The translations under genes were made by a program, and so were the position numbers. From Vicinamibacterales bacterium (GTDB lineage Bacteria; Acidobacteriota; Vicinamibacteria; Vicinamibacterales; Fen-181), in the NCBI GenBank assembly GCA_036504215.1, contig DASXVO010000035.1:62001-126000 (forward strand): a stretch of 64,000 bases of DNA, given 5' to 3'. This document shows positions 15,115 through 18,981 of the stretch, piece by piece. Every line of letters begins with the position of its first letter. The first letter of the stretch is position 1. Below the pieces are notes generated by a model. The model was not told the DNA's origin. It made no database searches and worked only from the letters and a program-made list of their open reading frames with translations.

Positions 15115-17712
15115 ATGACCGTTCCCGCCGCTCTTCCCGCGCTGGCCGTTCTCCTCGGCGCCGCCCTTGGTACGTTCGGCGCCAGCCCGTCGCCGGGCTG
15201 GGCGCTTGGTGTCTCGGTCGTCGCCCTGGCCGTGGCCGGCATGGCGTTCGGGATGGGGCCTTCCGGACGCGCAGGCCGACGTGGGCGCCAACTCTTCGCC
15301 CCCTCGGTCTGTATCGTGTTCCTCATGGTGGCCTCGACGCTGGCCGGCGACGCCGCCCGATCCGCCAGACATCCGCCGCTGCGCGAGGCGCTGCCCGATT
15401 CCGTCCTGTCGGACCCGGTGACGCTCGAGGGCGAACTCCGGGAGGATGCCGCGGTCGGAGAGCGGGGCGTCAACCTCGCGCTGGCGGTGGATCGAGTGCG
15501 CCGAACCGGATTCGACCGGGCGGCACCAGGTGGCGTGCGTCTGACGGTCGGGGGCGAGTTGGCGATCGGGCAGGCGCGCGCCTGGCGTGCGGGCCGGCGC
15601 GTTCGTGTCGCGGCCCTGCTGCGCGAACCGGGACGGTTCCAGGATCCGGGCGTCCCAGACAGCCGGGCCGCTCTCGCACGGAAAGGCGTCGTGCTGATTG
15701 GTTCGGTCAAGAGTGCAGGGCTGGTGGACGTGCTGGCGCCCGGGGGATGGGTGGCGGAGACGGCCGCAGAGGTGCGCCGCCTGACGCGGGCTGCCGTGGT
15801 GCGACATGTCGGGTCCCACAGTCCGCGCTCGGCCGCCATCGTCGTCGCCATCCTGATCGGCGACCGCGTCGGGCTGGAGGAGGAGGTGCAGCGGCGGCTG
15901 CAGGAGGCGGGGACGTATCACGTGATTGCGATCTCGGGTGGAAACATTGCGATCCTCGCGGGCGTGCTGCTCGCGTTCTTCCGCCTTGCTCGGCTGGGTC
16001 CCCGGTTGGGGTGTTGGTTGACGATGGCCGTGCTCGTCGGGTACGCGGAGATTGTCGGTGGCGGAGCCTCGGTCGTCCGCGCCACGCTGATGGGGTGCAC
16101 CTACCTTCTCGCGCGCCAGGCTGACCATCGCAGCGCGCCGGTGAATGCCCTTGCCGTGTCGTGCGCAGTGATTCTGTTCGTGACACCAGCGTCGGTCGCG
16201 GACGTCGCCTTCTGGCTGACGTTCGGCGCCACGCTGGGGATTCTCATTGGTGTGGGCCGCATGGGGAAGCGGCTGCCGCGGCCGTTGTGGATCCGTGTGC
16301 CCGTGGGGCTGCTGTTGACGTCGATCTGTGCCGAACTCGCGCTCTTCCCGGTGGGTGCGCTTTCGTTCGCGCGGGTGACGTTTGCCGGTCTCGTTCTGAA
16401 CTTCCTCGCCATTCCTCTGATGGGCGTCGCGCAGGTGGCGGGAATGCTGGTGCTGCCGCTGTCGGCGGTCAGCCAGACAGTCGCGGGGCTGGCGGGATAC
16501 CTGGCTCATCTTGGCGCCGACGGTCTGGTCAGATCGGCGACGCTCGTGGACTACGCTCCGTGGTCGTCCTACCGGCTGCCACCGCCGGGTCTGTTCGTGG
16601 TCTTTGGCTACTACCTGGGATGGACCATGTGGTTGTGGCTGCGGTCACCCACGGCCGTCGCGGTGCGCGGGCGATGGCGCCGCGTCATGTCCCGTCTGGC
16701 GGCCGCGGCGATTGTCGGGTGTGGGCTGTGGGTGCTCGTCGAGCCCATGACGCTCCTGTGGCCAGGGGTCAGCGGGCGGTTGCGGGTCACCGTGCTCGAT
16801 GTGGGCCACGGTGACGCCATCCTCGTGCAACTGCCGGACCGTCGCAGTGTGCTCGTGGACGCCGGCGGATCGATGACGGGCGGGTCGTTCGACCTCGGCG
16901 GACGAGTGGTGGCGCCGGCCCTCTGGTCGCTTGGAACGCGCCGGCTCGACGCGCTGGTGATATCGCACGCCGACCCTGACCACATCGGCGGAGCCGCGTC
17001 GATTCTGCGCGACTTCCGGCCACGCGAGATCTGGGAGGCTGTGCCGGTGGCGAAGTCACCTCTCTGGCAGGCTCTGCGCCGCGACGCGGACGGAGCGCGG
17101 ATTGCCTGGCACAGCAGGCACGCAGGCGACGTTGTCGTGCTCGGTGATGTCCGCTGCCGGGTCTGGCACCCGCCACCGCCCGAGTGGGAACGGCCACGGC
17201 CGAGGAACGACGACTCGCTGGTGATGGAACTCGAGTACGGCGAGGTATCGATCGTGTTGCCGGGCGACATCGGACGTCCGGTCGAGTCGGTGCTCGCGCG
17301 CGAGTCGTGGCCGCGTCGGCTGCGCGTGCTCAAGGTCCCGCATCACGGCAGCGCGACGTCGAGCCTGCCCGAGTTCCTGGGTGGCCTCGCACCGACACTG
17401 GCGATCCTGAGCGCGGGGGCCACGACGAAGGTGAGCGACGACGTGCTGCGCCGCTACACGGAGCTTGGCGCGACGATGCTGCGAACCGACGTCGACGGCG
17501 CCATCACGCTGGAGACGGACGGGCGGACGATCACCGTCACGACGTTCACGGGGAGACGGCTCTCCGTCGATGGCACCACAAAGAACACGAAGGTCACAAA
17601 GGGCGTCGAGCGTGTTGACAGTACCAGGCGGTCGGTCGGCCTGCAGCCGACCGCGCGAAAGACCGGACGGAACTGCTGTCCGGCCCTCGGCAACAGGAGT
17701 TCACACCGATGA
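15115..17712 (+). CDS. comEC: ComEC/Rec2 family DNA uptake channel
   Basis: ComEC is the inner-membrane channel through which single-stranded DNA enters during natural transformation. The 865-residue protein has hydrophobic N-terminal segments, a DUF4131-like region, the Competence domain with the signature HVIAISGGNIAILAGVLLAF (about residues 268-287) and multiple membrane helices, then a metallo-beta-lactamase-like domain (VTVLDVGHGDAILVQLPD, VISHADPDHIGGA, VPHHGSATSS). The conserved part ends near residue 818 (TITVTTFTG). The last ~45 residues are encoded by an intergenic-type repeat (from 17576) and look like accidental extension. Its stop overlaps the next start (ATGA). Confidence 0.93.
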   Translation: MTVPAALPALAVLLGAALGTFGASPSPGWALGVSVVALAVAGMAFGMGPSGRAGRRGRQLFAPSVCIVFLMVASTLAGDAARSARHPPLREALPDSVLSDPVTLEGELREDAAVGERGVNLALAVDRVRRTGFDRAAPGGVRLTVGGELAIGQARAWRAGRRVRVAALLREPGRFQDPGVPDSRAALARKGVVLIGSVKSAGLVDVLAPGGWVAETAAEVRRLTRAAVVRHVGSHSPRSAAIVVAILIGDRVGLEEEVQRRLQEAGTYHVIAISGGNIAILAGVLLAFFRLARLGPRLGCWLTMAVLVGYAEIVGGGASVVRATLMGCTYLLARQADHRSAPVNALAVSCAVILFVTPASVADVAFWLTFGATLGILIGVGRMGKRLPRPLWIRVPVGLLLTSICAELALFPVGALSFARVTFAGLVLNFLAIPLMGVAQVAGMLVLPLSAVSQTVAGLAGYLAHLGADGLVRSATLVDYAPWSSYRLPPPGLFVVFGYYLGWTMWLWLRSPTAVAVRGRWRRVMSRLAAAAIVGCGLWVLVEPMTLLWPGVSGRLRVTVLDVGHGDAILVQLPDRRSVLVDAGGSMTGGSFDLGGRVVAPALWSLGTRRLDALVISHADPDHIGGAASILRDFRPREIWEAVPVAKSPLWQALRRDADGARIAWHSRHAGDVVVLGDVRCRVWHPPPPEWERPRPRNDDSLVMELEYGEVSIVLPGDIGRPVESVLARESWPRRLRVLKVPHHGSATSSLPEFLGGLAPTLAILSAGATTKVSDDVLRRYTELGATMLRTDVDGAITLETDGRTITVTTFTGRRLSVDGTTKNTKVTKGVERVDSTRRSVGLQPTARKTGRNCCPALGNRSSHR
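17576..17602 (+). repeat. Left copy of a CCACAAAG...GTCACAAAG repeat flanking the GxxExxY gene
   Basis: The 27-nt stretch begins CCACAAAG and ends GTCACAAAGG. An inverted, slightly shorter copy lies on the other side of the GxxExxY gene at 18117-18137. The left copy is inside the comEC reading frame and encodes its Thr/Lys-rich tail (TTKNTKVTKG). Confidence 0.7.
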
Positions 17713-18098
17713 GCACATCACCCGTCGCTCCAGACATCGAGCTTCTCGGCCGGCGCGTCATCGGATGCGCGCTCACCGTGCACCGCGCGCTGGGCCCCGG
17801 GTTCCTGGAGCGGATCTACCGGCAGGCGATGATGCTCGAGCTGGAGGCCTGCGGCATCGGCTTTCAGTGCGAGCAGCCGGCGGTCGTCGTCTACCGGGGG
17901 CAGCCGCTGTCGGGACAGCGGATTGACCTCGTGGTCGAAGGGCTGATTATCGTCGAGTTGAAGGCCGTGAGCGCCATCGAACCCATCCACGTGGCGCAGG
18001 TGTTGTCGTATTTGAAGACGACAGGGCTGCGGTTGGGGTTGCTGATCAACTTCCACGAGACGCTGTTGAAGAACGGGATCCGCCGTCTCGTGCTGTGA
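17709..18098 (+). CDS. GxxExxY protein (PDDEXK_3-type nuclease-like)
   Basis: A 129-residue protein of the GxxExxY family, whose function is unproven; the fold is assigned to the PD-(D/E)xK nuclease superfamily (PDDEXK_3). The name-giving motif is G31-FL-E34-RI-Y37 (in GPGFLERIY). The nuclease-like core is visible as D73 in SGQRIDLVVEG followed by E83-L-K85 in IIVELKAV, so the metal-binding D/E/K set is intact. The ATG at 17709 overlaps the comEC stop by 4 nt. The gene sits between two inverted copies of a CACAAAG-rich repeat, which suggests it arrived as a small cassette. Whether it cuts nucleic acid is unknown. Confidence 0.88.
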   Translation: MSTSPVAPDIELLGRRVIGCALTVHRALGPGFLERIYRQAMMLELEACGIGFQCEQPAVVVYRGQPLSGQRIDLVVEGLIIVELKAVSAIEPIHVAQVLSYLKTTGLRLGLLINFHETLLKNGIRRLVL

Positions 18099-18116
18099 CA
18101 GGAGTCCGCGTGGTGT

Positions 18117-18137
18117 GCTTTGTGACCTTTGTGGTTC
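18117..18137 (-). repeat. Right, inverted copy of the CACAAAG repeat flanking the GxxExxY gene
   Basis: Read on the minus strand this gives GAACCACAAAGGTCACAAAG followed by C, matching both ends of the left copy (CCACAAAG and GTCACAAAG) but lacking its middle 9 nt. Together with 17576-17602 it brackets the GxxExxY gene in opposite orientation, about 515 bp apart. A further related stretch (CCACGAAGACCTGTGG on minus) adjoins it at 18137-18152. Confidence 0.7.
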
Positions 18138-18156
18138 CACAGGTCTTCGTGGACCC

Positions 18157-18981
18157 TCAGTCGGGGTGGTCTTCGTTCTCGGTGGTCTTGACGGCTTGCC
18201 ACTCGCGTTCGAGCGTGTCGAGGTCGCGGCCCTGGAGTTGTTCGCCCCTGGCGGCGAAGCGGTGTTCCATTGCGGTGAACCGGCGCGCGAACTTGTCGTC
18301 CGCCGTGCGCAGGGCGGCTTCGGGCTCGATGCCCAGCTTTCGCGACAGGTTGGCGATCGCGAACAGCAAGTCGCCCATCTCCTCCTCGACCCGGGCGCGG
18401 CTGCCGCCGCCCTCCACGGCCTGACGCAGTTCAGCCACTTCCTCTTCGATCTTCGCGAGCACGTCGGTCGCCCGTTCCCAGTCGAACCCGACGGCCGCCG
18501 CGCGGGTGCCCATCTCGAAGGCGCGGGCGAGTGCCGGAAGCGCCTTCGGCACGCCGCCAAGGATCGATTTCGGCGTGTCGCCCGCCGGCGACGCCGCCCG
18601 CTCCTCGGCCTTGACGGCCTCCCATCGGCCGAGCACTTCGTCCGCGGTCTTCGCCTTGGCCGCATCACCGAAGACGTGGGGATGTCGGCGCAGCAGCTTG
18701 TCGGCAATCGACGTCAGCGAGTCGGCCACGGTGAAGTCGCCGGCCTCCGAACACACCTGCGCGAGCAGCACGCCCTCGAAGATGAGGTCGCCAATCTCCT
18801 CGCGCAGTGCCGGCCTGTTGCCTCCGTCAATCGCCTCCAGGACCTCGTACGTTTCCTCGAGTACGAACGGGCGGAGCGTCTCGAGCGTCTGCTCGCGGTC
18901 CCACGGACAGCCGCCCGGGGCGCGCAGGCGGGCGACGATGTCCACAAGACGGGTGAAGGCGGCGCCAGCAGGGTCGGCCAT
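18157..18981 (-). CDS. mazG: Nucleoside triphosphate pyrophosphohydrolase MazG
   Basis: MazG hydrolyses (d)NTPs to monophosphates and pyrophosphate, acting as a house-cleaning enzyme and modulating the stringent response. The 274-residue protein has two tandem MazG domains: the N-terminal one with CPWDREQTLETLRPFVLEE, EVLEAID and EEIGDLIFEGVLLAQVC, ending in LLRRHPHVFGD; the C-terminal one with KIEEEVAELRQAV and EEEMGDLLFAIANLSRKLG, which carries the EExxE/ExxD metal-binding helices. It is convergent with the GxxExxY gene and divergent from the DUF1844 gene. The size matches the E. coli protein. Confidence 0.95.
   Translation of the reverse strand: MADPAGAAFTRLVDIVARLRAPGGCPWDREQTLETLRPFVLEETYEVLEAIDGGNRPALREEIGDLIFEGVLLAQVCSEAGDFTVADSLTSIADKLLRRHPHVFGDAAKAKTADEVLGRWEAVKAEERAASPAGDTPKSILGGVPKALPALARAFEMGTRAAAVGFDWERATDVLAKIEEEVAELRQAVEGGGSRARVEEEMGDLLFAIANLSRKLGIEPEAALRTADDKFARRFTAMEHRFAARGEQLQGRDLDTLEREWQAVKTTENEDHPD

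Follow-up and report, generated by a model that had tools for sequence, protein, structure and literature searches.

A GxxExxY gene lies between inverted periodic arrays downstream of comEC

The window, a stretch of 64,000 nucleotides from a Vicinamibacterales genome (contig DASXVO010000035.1), carries a small GxxExxY gene between a comEC-like and a mazG-like gene (Table 1). An earlier note on this DNA had described CACAAAG repeats inverted around the GxxExxY gene, an arrangement confirmed, as two arrays of CAC(A/G)AAG units, both by alignment of the two arms and by whole-genome pattern counts. The arms are inverted repeats of 27 nt with 78% identity (17571-17597 and 18113-18139), and their core of 16 nt (17586-17601 and 18118-18133) reaches 94% identity. 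The repeat copies bracket the gene as first reported, with the correction that the right array contains an extra minus-strand CACGAAG unit at 18145-18151. The double-unit pattern CACRAAGNNCACRAAG has three exact matches in the window, all at the GxxExxY locus, and the rest of the 5.92-Mb genome adds one more for a total of four, compared to none for the reversed control pattern. The only other double-unit match in this genome, CACGAAGTGCACGAAG (locus L006, G000 C70:98652-98667; G-numbers denote genomes, with G000 that of the window, and L-numbers denote loci), has no GxxExxY gene nearby.

The PDDEXK_3 open reading frame is the only one between the arms, where known transposases are absent, and this comEC-adjoining copy is the sole GxxExxY gene of the genome. 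As previously described, comEC continues for 45 codons after ..SVDG, and its stop overlaps the GxxExxY start in an ATGA at 17709-17712.

Table 1. Genes and sequence features of the comEC-mazG interval, in positions of the window.
Feature	Positions	Strand	Remarks
comEC-like gene	15115..17712	+	Pfam Competence, DUF4131, Lactamase_B
Last 45 codons of comEC, reading through the left arm	about 17574-17709	+	Congeners end shortly past the TFTG motif
Left arm	17571..17602	+	Three CAC(A/G)AAG units at 17577, 17586 and 17595, 9-nt period
AGGAG, ribosome-binding-site-like	17695..17699	+	9 nt 5' of the ATG; direct sequence reading
GxxExxY gene	17709..18098	+	129 aa, predicted PD-(D/E)xK fold; profile matches, residue conservation, AlphaFold
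Right arm	18113..18151	-	CACAAAG at 18118 and 18127, CACGAAG at 18145; opposite orientation to the left arm
mazG-like gene	18157..18981	-	Convergent neighbour; same neighbour in the orthologous slot of relatives

The encoded protein is a predicted nuclease under purifying selection

The protein encoded in the window is a clear member of the GxxExxY/PDDEXK_3 family, scoring 132.5 bits against TIGR04256 (cut-off 35) and 129.3 bits against PF13366 (cut-off 22), and both its sequence and its structural model predict a nuclease of the PD-(D/E)xK fold. Across 67 relatives, residues G31, E34, Y37 and K85 are invariant, and D73 and E83 are conserved in at least 90%. The AlphaFold model shows a confident fold (pLDDT 94.9), which returned only weak PDB fold matches to lambda exonuclease and SSO0001 (E 0.016-0.035); a sequence search of the PDB yielded no match. 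The gene displays dN/dS values of 0.05-0.11, indicative of purifying selection. A role in defence was also considered and found no support, since PADLOC gave weak matches only.

Mirrored arms are a general feature of GxxExxY loci in the phylum

A search of genome contigs with the window protein returned only 4 relatives; the comparative analysis drew on 297 genomes from the phylum and 162 from the order, which provided 138 distinct GxxExxY loci, 133 of them with both flanks. A locus-specific inverted repeat common to both flanks, scoring above the 95th percentile of mispaired flanks, was present in 108 of these 133 loci, with a median left-right arm score of 44 compared to 22 for mispaired flanks. 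The high-scoring arms of L085, L093, L112 and L125 are GC-rich palindromes rather than periodic arrays, and the medians are independent of them; large palindromes of this kind lie outside or instead of periodic arrays in these four loci and in L076. Ungapped scores of at least 34 were obtained for 94 of the 133 GxxExxY genes and for only one of 153 control ORFs drawn from hairpin-rich chunks (Fisher p=2e-42). Furthermore, the own right arm was the best match for 72 of the 133 left arms (median rank 1). The occurrence of the repeat at both ends, which had been noted for the window alone, is thus general and non-random among relatives.

The expectation of a single family-wide repeat sequence did not hold, as every locus has its own mirrored array. 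An 8-9-nt period is seen in 80 of 100 arms, typically with a CACRRAG unit plus one or two free bases; other units include CACCGATGAA, GACAGGATTAACAGGATT and CGCAGATGA, among more. Arms differ between copies within one genome, while the two arms of each copy match each other, and in L248 even quirks of unit order are mirrored from arm to arm. The arms hug the ORF, giving a median element span of 549 bp. The units are short and A/G-rich, as a chance likeness of low-complexity sequence would have them, but this reading is refuted by the whole-genome counts, the mispaired-flank and control-ORF comparisons and the mirrored quirks of L248, and we give it practically no weight.

Outside the phylum, the arms of Gemmatirosa kalamazoonensis are near-perfect (score 119) and those of Bernardetia moderate (36, compared to 28 for mispaired flanks), and in Bacteroides finegoldii they are clear by eye, with a score of 45 that barely exceeds that of the best mispaired flank (43). 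Plasmid copies in Sphingomonas, Persicobacter, Fusobacteria and Treponema presented inverted arms not above chance, so arms are not universal. The gene on the plasmid of Fusobacteria bacterium ZRK30 (L386) is flanked by a direct, not inverted, repeat, CAGATTTAATCCGTGTACCTAT, and the Sphingomonas parapaucimobilis gene (L383), annotated between fabD and fabG in a fatty-acid operon, lacks significant arms.

The comEC copy is old

The same slot between comEC and mazG harbors 26 distinct GxxExxY proteins across the order, always in the same orientation, although for a few of them one of the two neighbours falls outside the contig or the stretch read. These proteins form essentially one clade, with 2 label changes on the tree compared to 24.1 after shuffling (0/500). 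Four congeners lack the gene and, as the earlier note had anticipated, have a shorter comEC: none carries the 45-codon tail, and all end shortly past TFTG (..TFTGATGVFTK* in G297 and G298, ..TFTGKRAVFSSRP* in G300). In G297 and G298 the slot is a tight empty junction.

On their own, these gene-less congeners and a 45-codon tail private to the window would suggest that a minimal cassette entered comEC recently and only in the lineage of the window. This scenario appears very unlikely given the 26 copies in one slot, one orientation and essentially one clade, which make the absence in four congeners better read as loss, and given the decayed forms in other genomes: a pseudogene with arms in G229, an internal deletion in G305 that left both arms and the ORF's final codons (..LKDGIRRLAV*) in place, and a solo hairpin in G269. 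Most likely, the copy was acquired before diversification of the order and was thereafter inherited or lost, with loss in the congeners. A further locus, L121:1380-1990 (G403 C44), has near-perfect arms and adjoins a gene recognized by eye from its translation as comM/yifB-like; it falls within the comEC-mazG clade on the tree and looks like a young move from that lineage.

The unit moves and decays

Within one genus (g51), loci L022 (G190) and L032 (G220) have common flanks, while L024 (G142) has only the element in common with them. The L024 element is 82% identical over 497 nt, and homology stops at the outer ends of the arms. We named the genes around these sites by reading the flanking translations, and searched the joined flanks in 41 congeners and read the junctions. 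The element lies between ftsA and ftsZ in G190, G220, G438 and G441 and between rpoB and rpoC in G142 and G445, with ends TCACCACGGAG...CTCCGTGGTGA. The ftsA-ftsZ site is also found shortened by ORF deletion in G252 (397 nt), reduced to the arms in G142 (244 nt) and as a clean empty junction in 29 congeners. The rpoB-rpoC site shows a right-arm scar in G449 and a clean empty junction in 24 congeners. No target-site duplication is evident at either site, for which the species are too diverged for certainty.

These observations provide good support for a mobile, arm-ended unit, whose decay leaves copies with a deleted ORF, arms alone or a scar. Whether the repeats are the ends of such a unit had not been established; homology between sites stops at the outer arms, empty sites exist and no other gene lies inside, indicating that they are. 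Of the minimal mobile cassette put forward in the earlier note, the arm-ended mobile unit devoid of a transposase stands and the recent insertion into comEC, an old copy inherited across the order, does not. Since most copies are vertically inherited, movement is rare.

The two arms of each copy evolve in concert

We grouped loci by common flanks into orthologous slots and compared their arms across species. Within these slots, the left and right arms of one copy have a median score of 42, compared to 24 for left and right arms taken from different species (p=2e-21), and orthologous flanks score lower than own arms as well (left-left 28, right-right 30). The own arms hence match each other far better than orthologous arms do, indicating that the arms evolve in concert. 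Arm similarity is also predicted by protein similarity, non-orthologous sites included (Mantel r=0.22, p=0.001).

This mirroring would be consistent with a process acting symmetrically on the DNA, for example template switching between the inverted repeats. Mirroring might alternatively arise at the RNA level, in an element resembling the intervening sequences (IVSs) of 23S rRNA: the arms would pair in the transcript, RNase III would cut the stem and release the element RNA, and selection for pairing would keep the arms mirrored, with movement possibly using a reverse transcriptase in trans. RNase III release would make insertions inside operons tolerable, and several are found there (rpoB-rpoC, ftsA-ftsZ and, by annotation, fabD-fabG); the upstream gene is co-oriented in 55 of 86 independent slots (p=0.013), a precedent exists in the Coxiella 23S rRNA IVS, with an S23 ORF in an RNase III-cut stem loop (PMC4990558), and four-helix-bundle genes with 7-nt-period mirrored arms occur in these same genomes. 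Nevertheless, many slots lie between convergent or divergent genes, and the fabD-fabG copy has no significant arms. Furthermore, the excess of G.U over A.C arm mismatches that selection for sense-RNA pairing should yield is not seen, either in an enlarged count (158:152, p=0.78) or in a first one (138:118, p=0.23), so such pairing is not what visibly shapes the arms. The mismatch counts fit mirroring at the DNA level, and we consider the RNA-level explanation unlikely.

Gene-less hairpins accompany GxxExxY genes

Genome-wide hairpin censuses were pattern-based. A three-unit pattern matched in 55 of the 162 genomes of the order, with up to 188 matches and near 0 for the reversed control, and the matches often come as plus/minus pairs 30-60 bp apart. 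The maximum was reached by the 5.0-Mb genome of G399, which has a single GxxExxY gene, in the comEC slot (L152). Hairpin presence tracks that of GxxExxY, with hairpins in 43 of 69 genomes having the gene compared to 12 of 93 genomes lacking it (p=5e-11). In G116, the arms in the comEC slot have period 8, and the genome has 93 period-8 and 0 period-9 pattern matches; in G310, solo arms resemble the arms of its own comEC slot (51 compared to a median of 24, rank 1 of 29). The relationship between hairpins and the arms flanking the gene is clear in these two genomes and in G362, G367 and G269, but not in G358 and G309, where the hairpin period differs from that of the comEC-slot arms. Overall, solo hairpins rank their own gene's arms at a median of 6 of 29, in a thin sample with mostly one hairpin per genome. 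An Rfam search of the hairpins identified no family, with weak hits below gathering scores only. Several genomes (G327, G347, G306, G395) have many hairpins and no GxxExxY gene; the bracketed stretches in G327 are composite hairpins in which no gene was recognized.

Four-helix-bundle genes form a second bracketed class

Mirrored arrays also surround genes of the four-helix-bundle family (TIGR02436) in the order, in 36 of 41 loci (L331-L380), with a period of about 7 nt in 29 of the 36. Both copies in the genome of the window (L361, G000 C59; L362, G000 C16) are bracketed. Because these genes are bracketed likewise, movement of both classes might depend on a third factor: some host or helper system would move periodic hairpins, and the small GxxExxY and four-helix-bundle genes would be cargo in the loop. 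Two unrelated gene families inside such arms and the hairpins of genomes devoid of GxxExxY speak for cargo status. Against it, arm period and sequence track the gene family and, in GxxExxY, the protein clade; control ORFs are almost never found inside such arms; the ORF is under purifying selection; and the arms-only forms of G305 and G142 arose by ORF loss. On balance, a passenger role for these genes seems improbable.

Proposed mechanism

Taken together, these data suggest that the locus in the window is probably an old representative of a mobile element of ORF-in-hairpin type, composed of a left array, a PD-(D/E)xK gene and a right array. The unit spans about 550 bp and encodes a small predicted nuclease without a transposase. 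This protein, a plausible candidate for the mover of the unit, may recognize its cognate arms, probably as a hairpin or cruciform, and cutting of the arms would start the movement or copying of the arm-ended DNA. The nuclease could also serve gene-less hairpins in trans, as has been proposed for RAYTs and REPINs, and mirror symmetry would be renewed at the DNA level by fold-back synthesis in which one arm templates the other.

Annotations of many bacterial genomes list GxxExxY genes but assign them no role, and being the only gene of a mobile unit with hairpin ends supplies one that can be tested. Such a unit would point to possible transposition by a PD-(D/E)xK nuclease on its own, suggests an origin for many gene-less periodic hairpins, and offers a natural example of inverted arms evolving in concert.

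Comparison with known systems

Like insertion sequences and classical transposons, the GxxExxY unit has terminal inverted repeats and empty sites; it differs from them in having no known transposase. The window protein belongs clearly to TIGR04256/PF13366, yet that family name covers the protein only, and the literature mentioning the family in the searched library does not describe mirrored arms, empty sites or mobility. The Rpn proteins (YhgA-like, Transposase_31) are likewise PD-(D/E)xK proteins, sporadic, multi-copy and proposed to mobilize DNA (PMC5350276); they form a different family from GxxExxY, and mirrored arms are not described in that paper, in which the term "inverted repeat" is absent.

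In the REPIN-RAYT system, inverted short repeats flank a gene that is usually present once and passed on vertically, and related gene-less hairpins are scattered through the genome (PMC3116915). The GxxExxY unit resembles it in having a mostly single-copy, vertically inherited gene within inverted short repeats and, in some genomes, in scattered gene-less hairpins related to the arms of the gene. In contrast, RAYT is a Y1 (HUH) transposase, whereas the GxxExxY unit encodes a PDDEXK_3 protein and no other gene, and its arms are 8-9-nt periodic arrays that are copy-specific and evolve in concert.

ORF-less forms of the 23S rRNA IVSs are known. The IVS of Coxiella is a selfish element of 428 nt with an S23 (four-helix-bundle) ORF and heptameric repeats upstream of it (PMC4990558), and hence shares with the GxxExxY unit a small ORF in a stem loop with tandem short repeats beside it. 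The two differ in location, since the GxxExxY unit of the window sits between comEC and mazG and not in rRNA, as well as in protein and repeat period. By analogy, GxxExxY units may represent the nuclease-encoding counterpart of such ORF-in-hairpin elements, which would link the two classes and bear on the movement of 23S rRNA IVSs with S23 ORFs, a long-standing question. More tentatively, both could belong to an undescribed class of mirrored-array mobile elements, in which one small PD-(D/E)xK protein, or a four-helix-bundle protein in the sister class, lies inside copy-private, self-complementary periodic arrays that stay identical through concerted change and spawn gene-less hairpins, with the 23S rRNA IVSs as one specialized branch.
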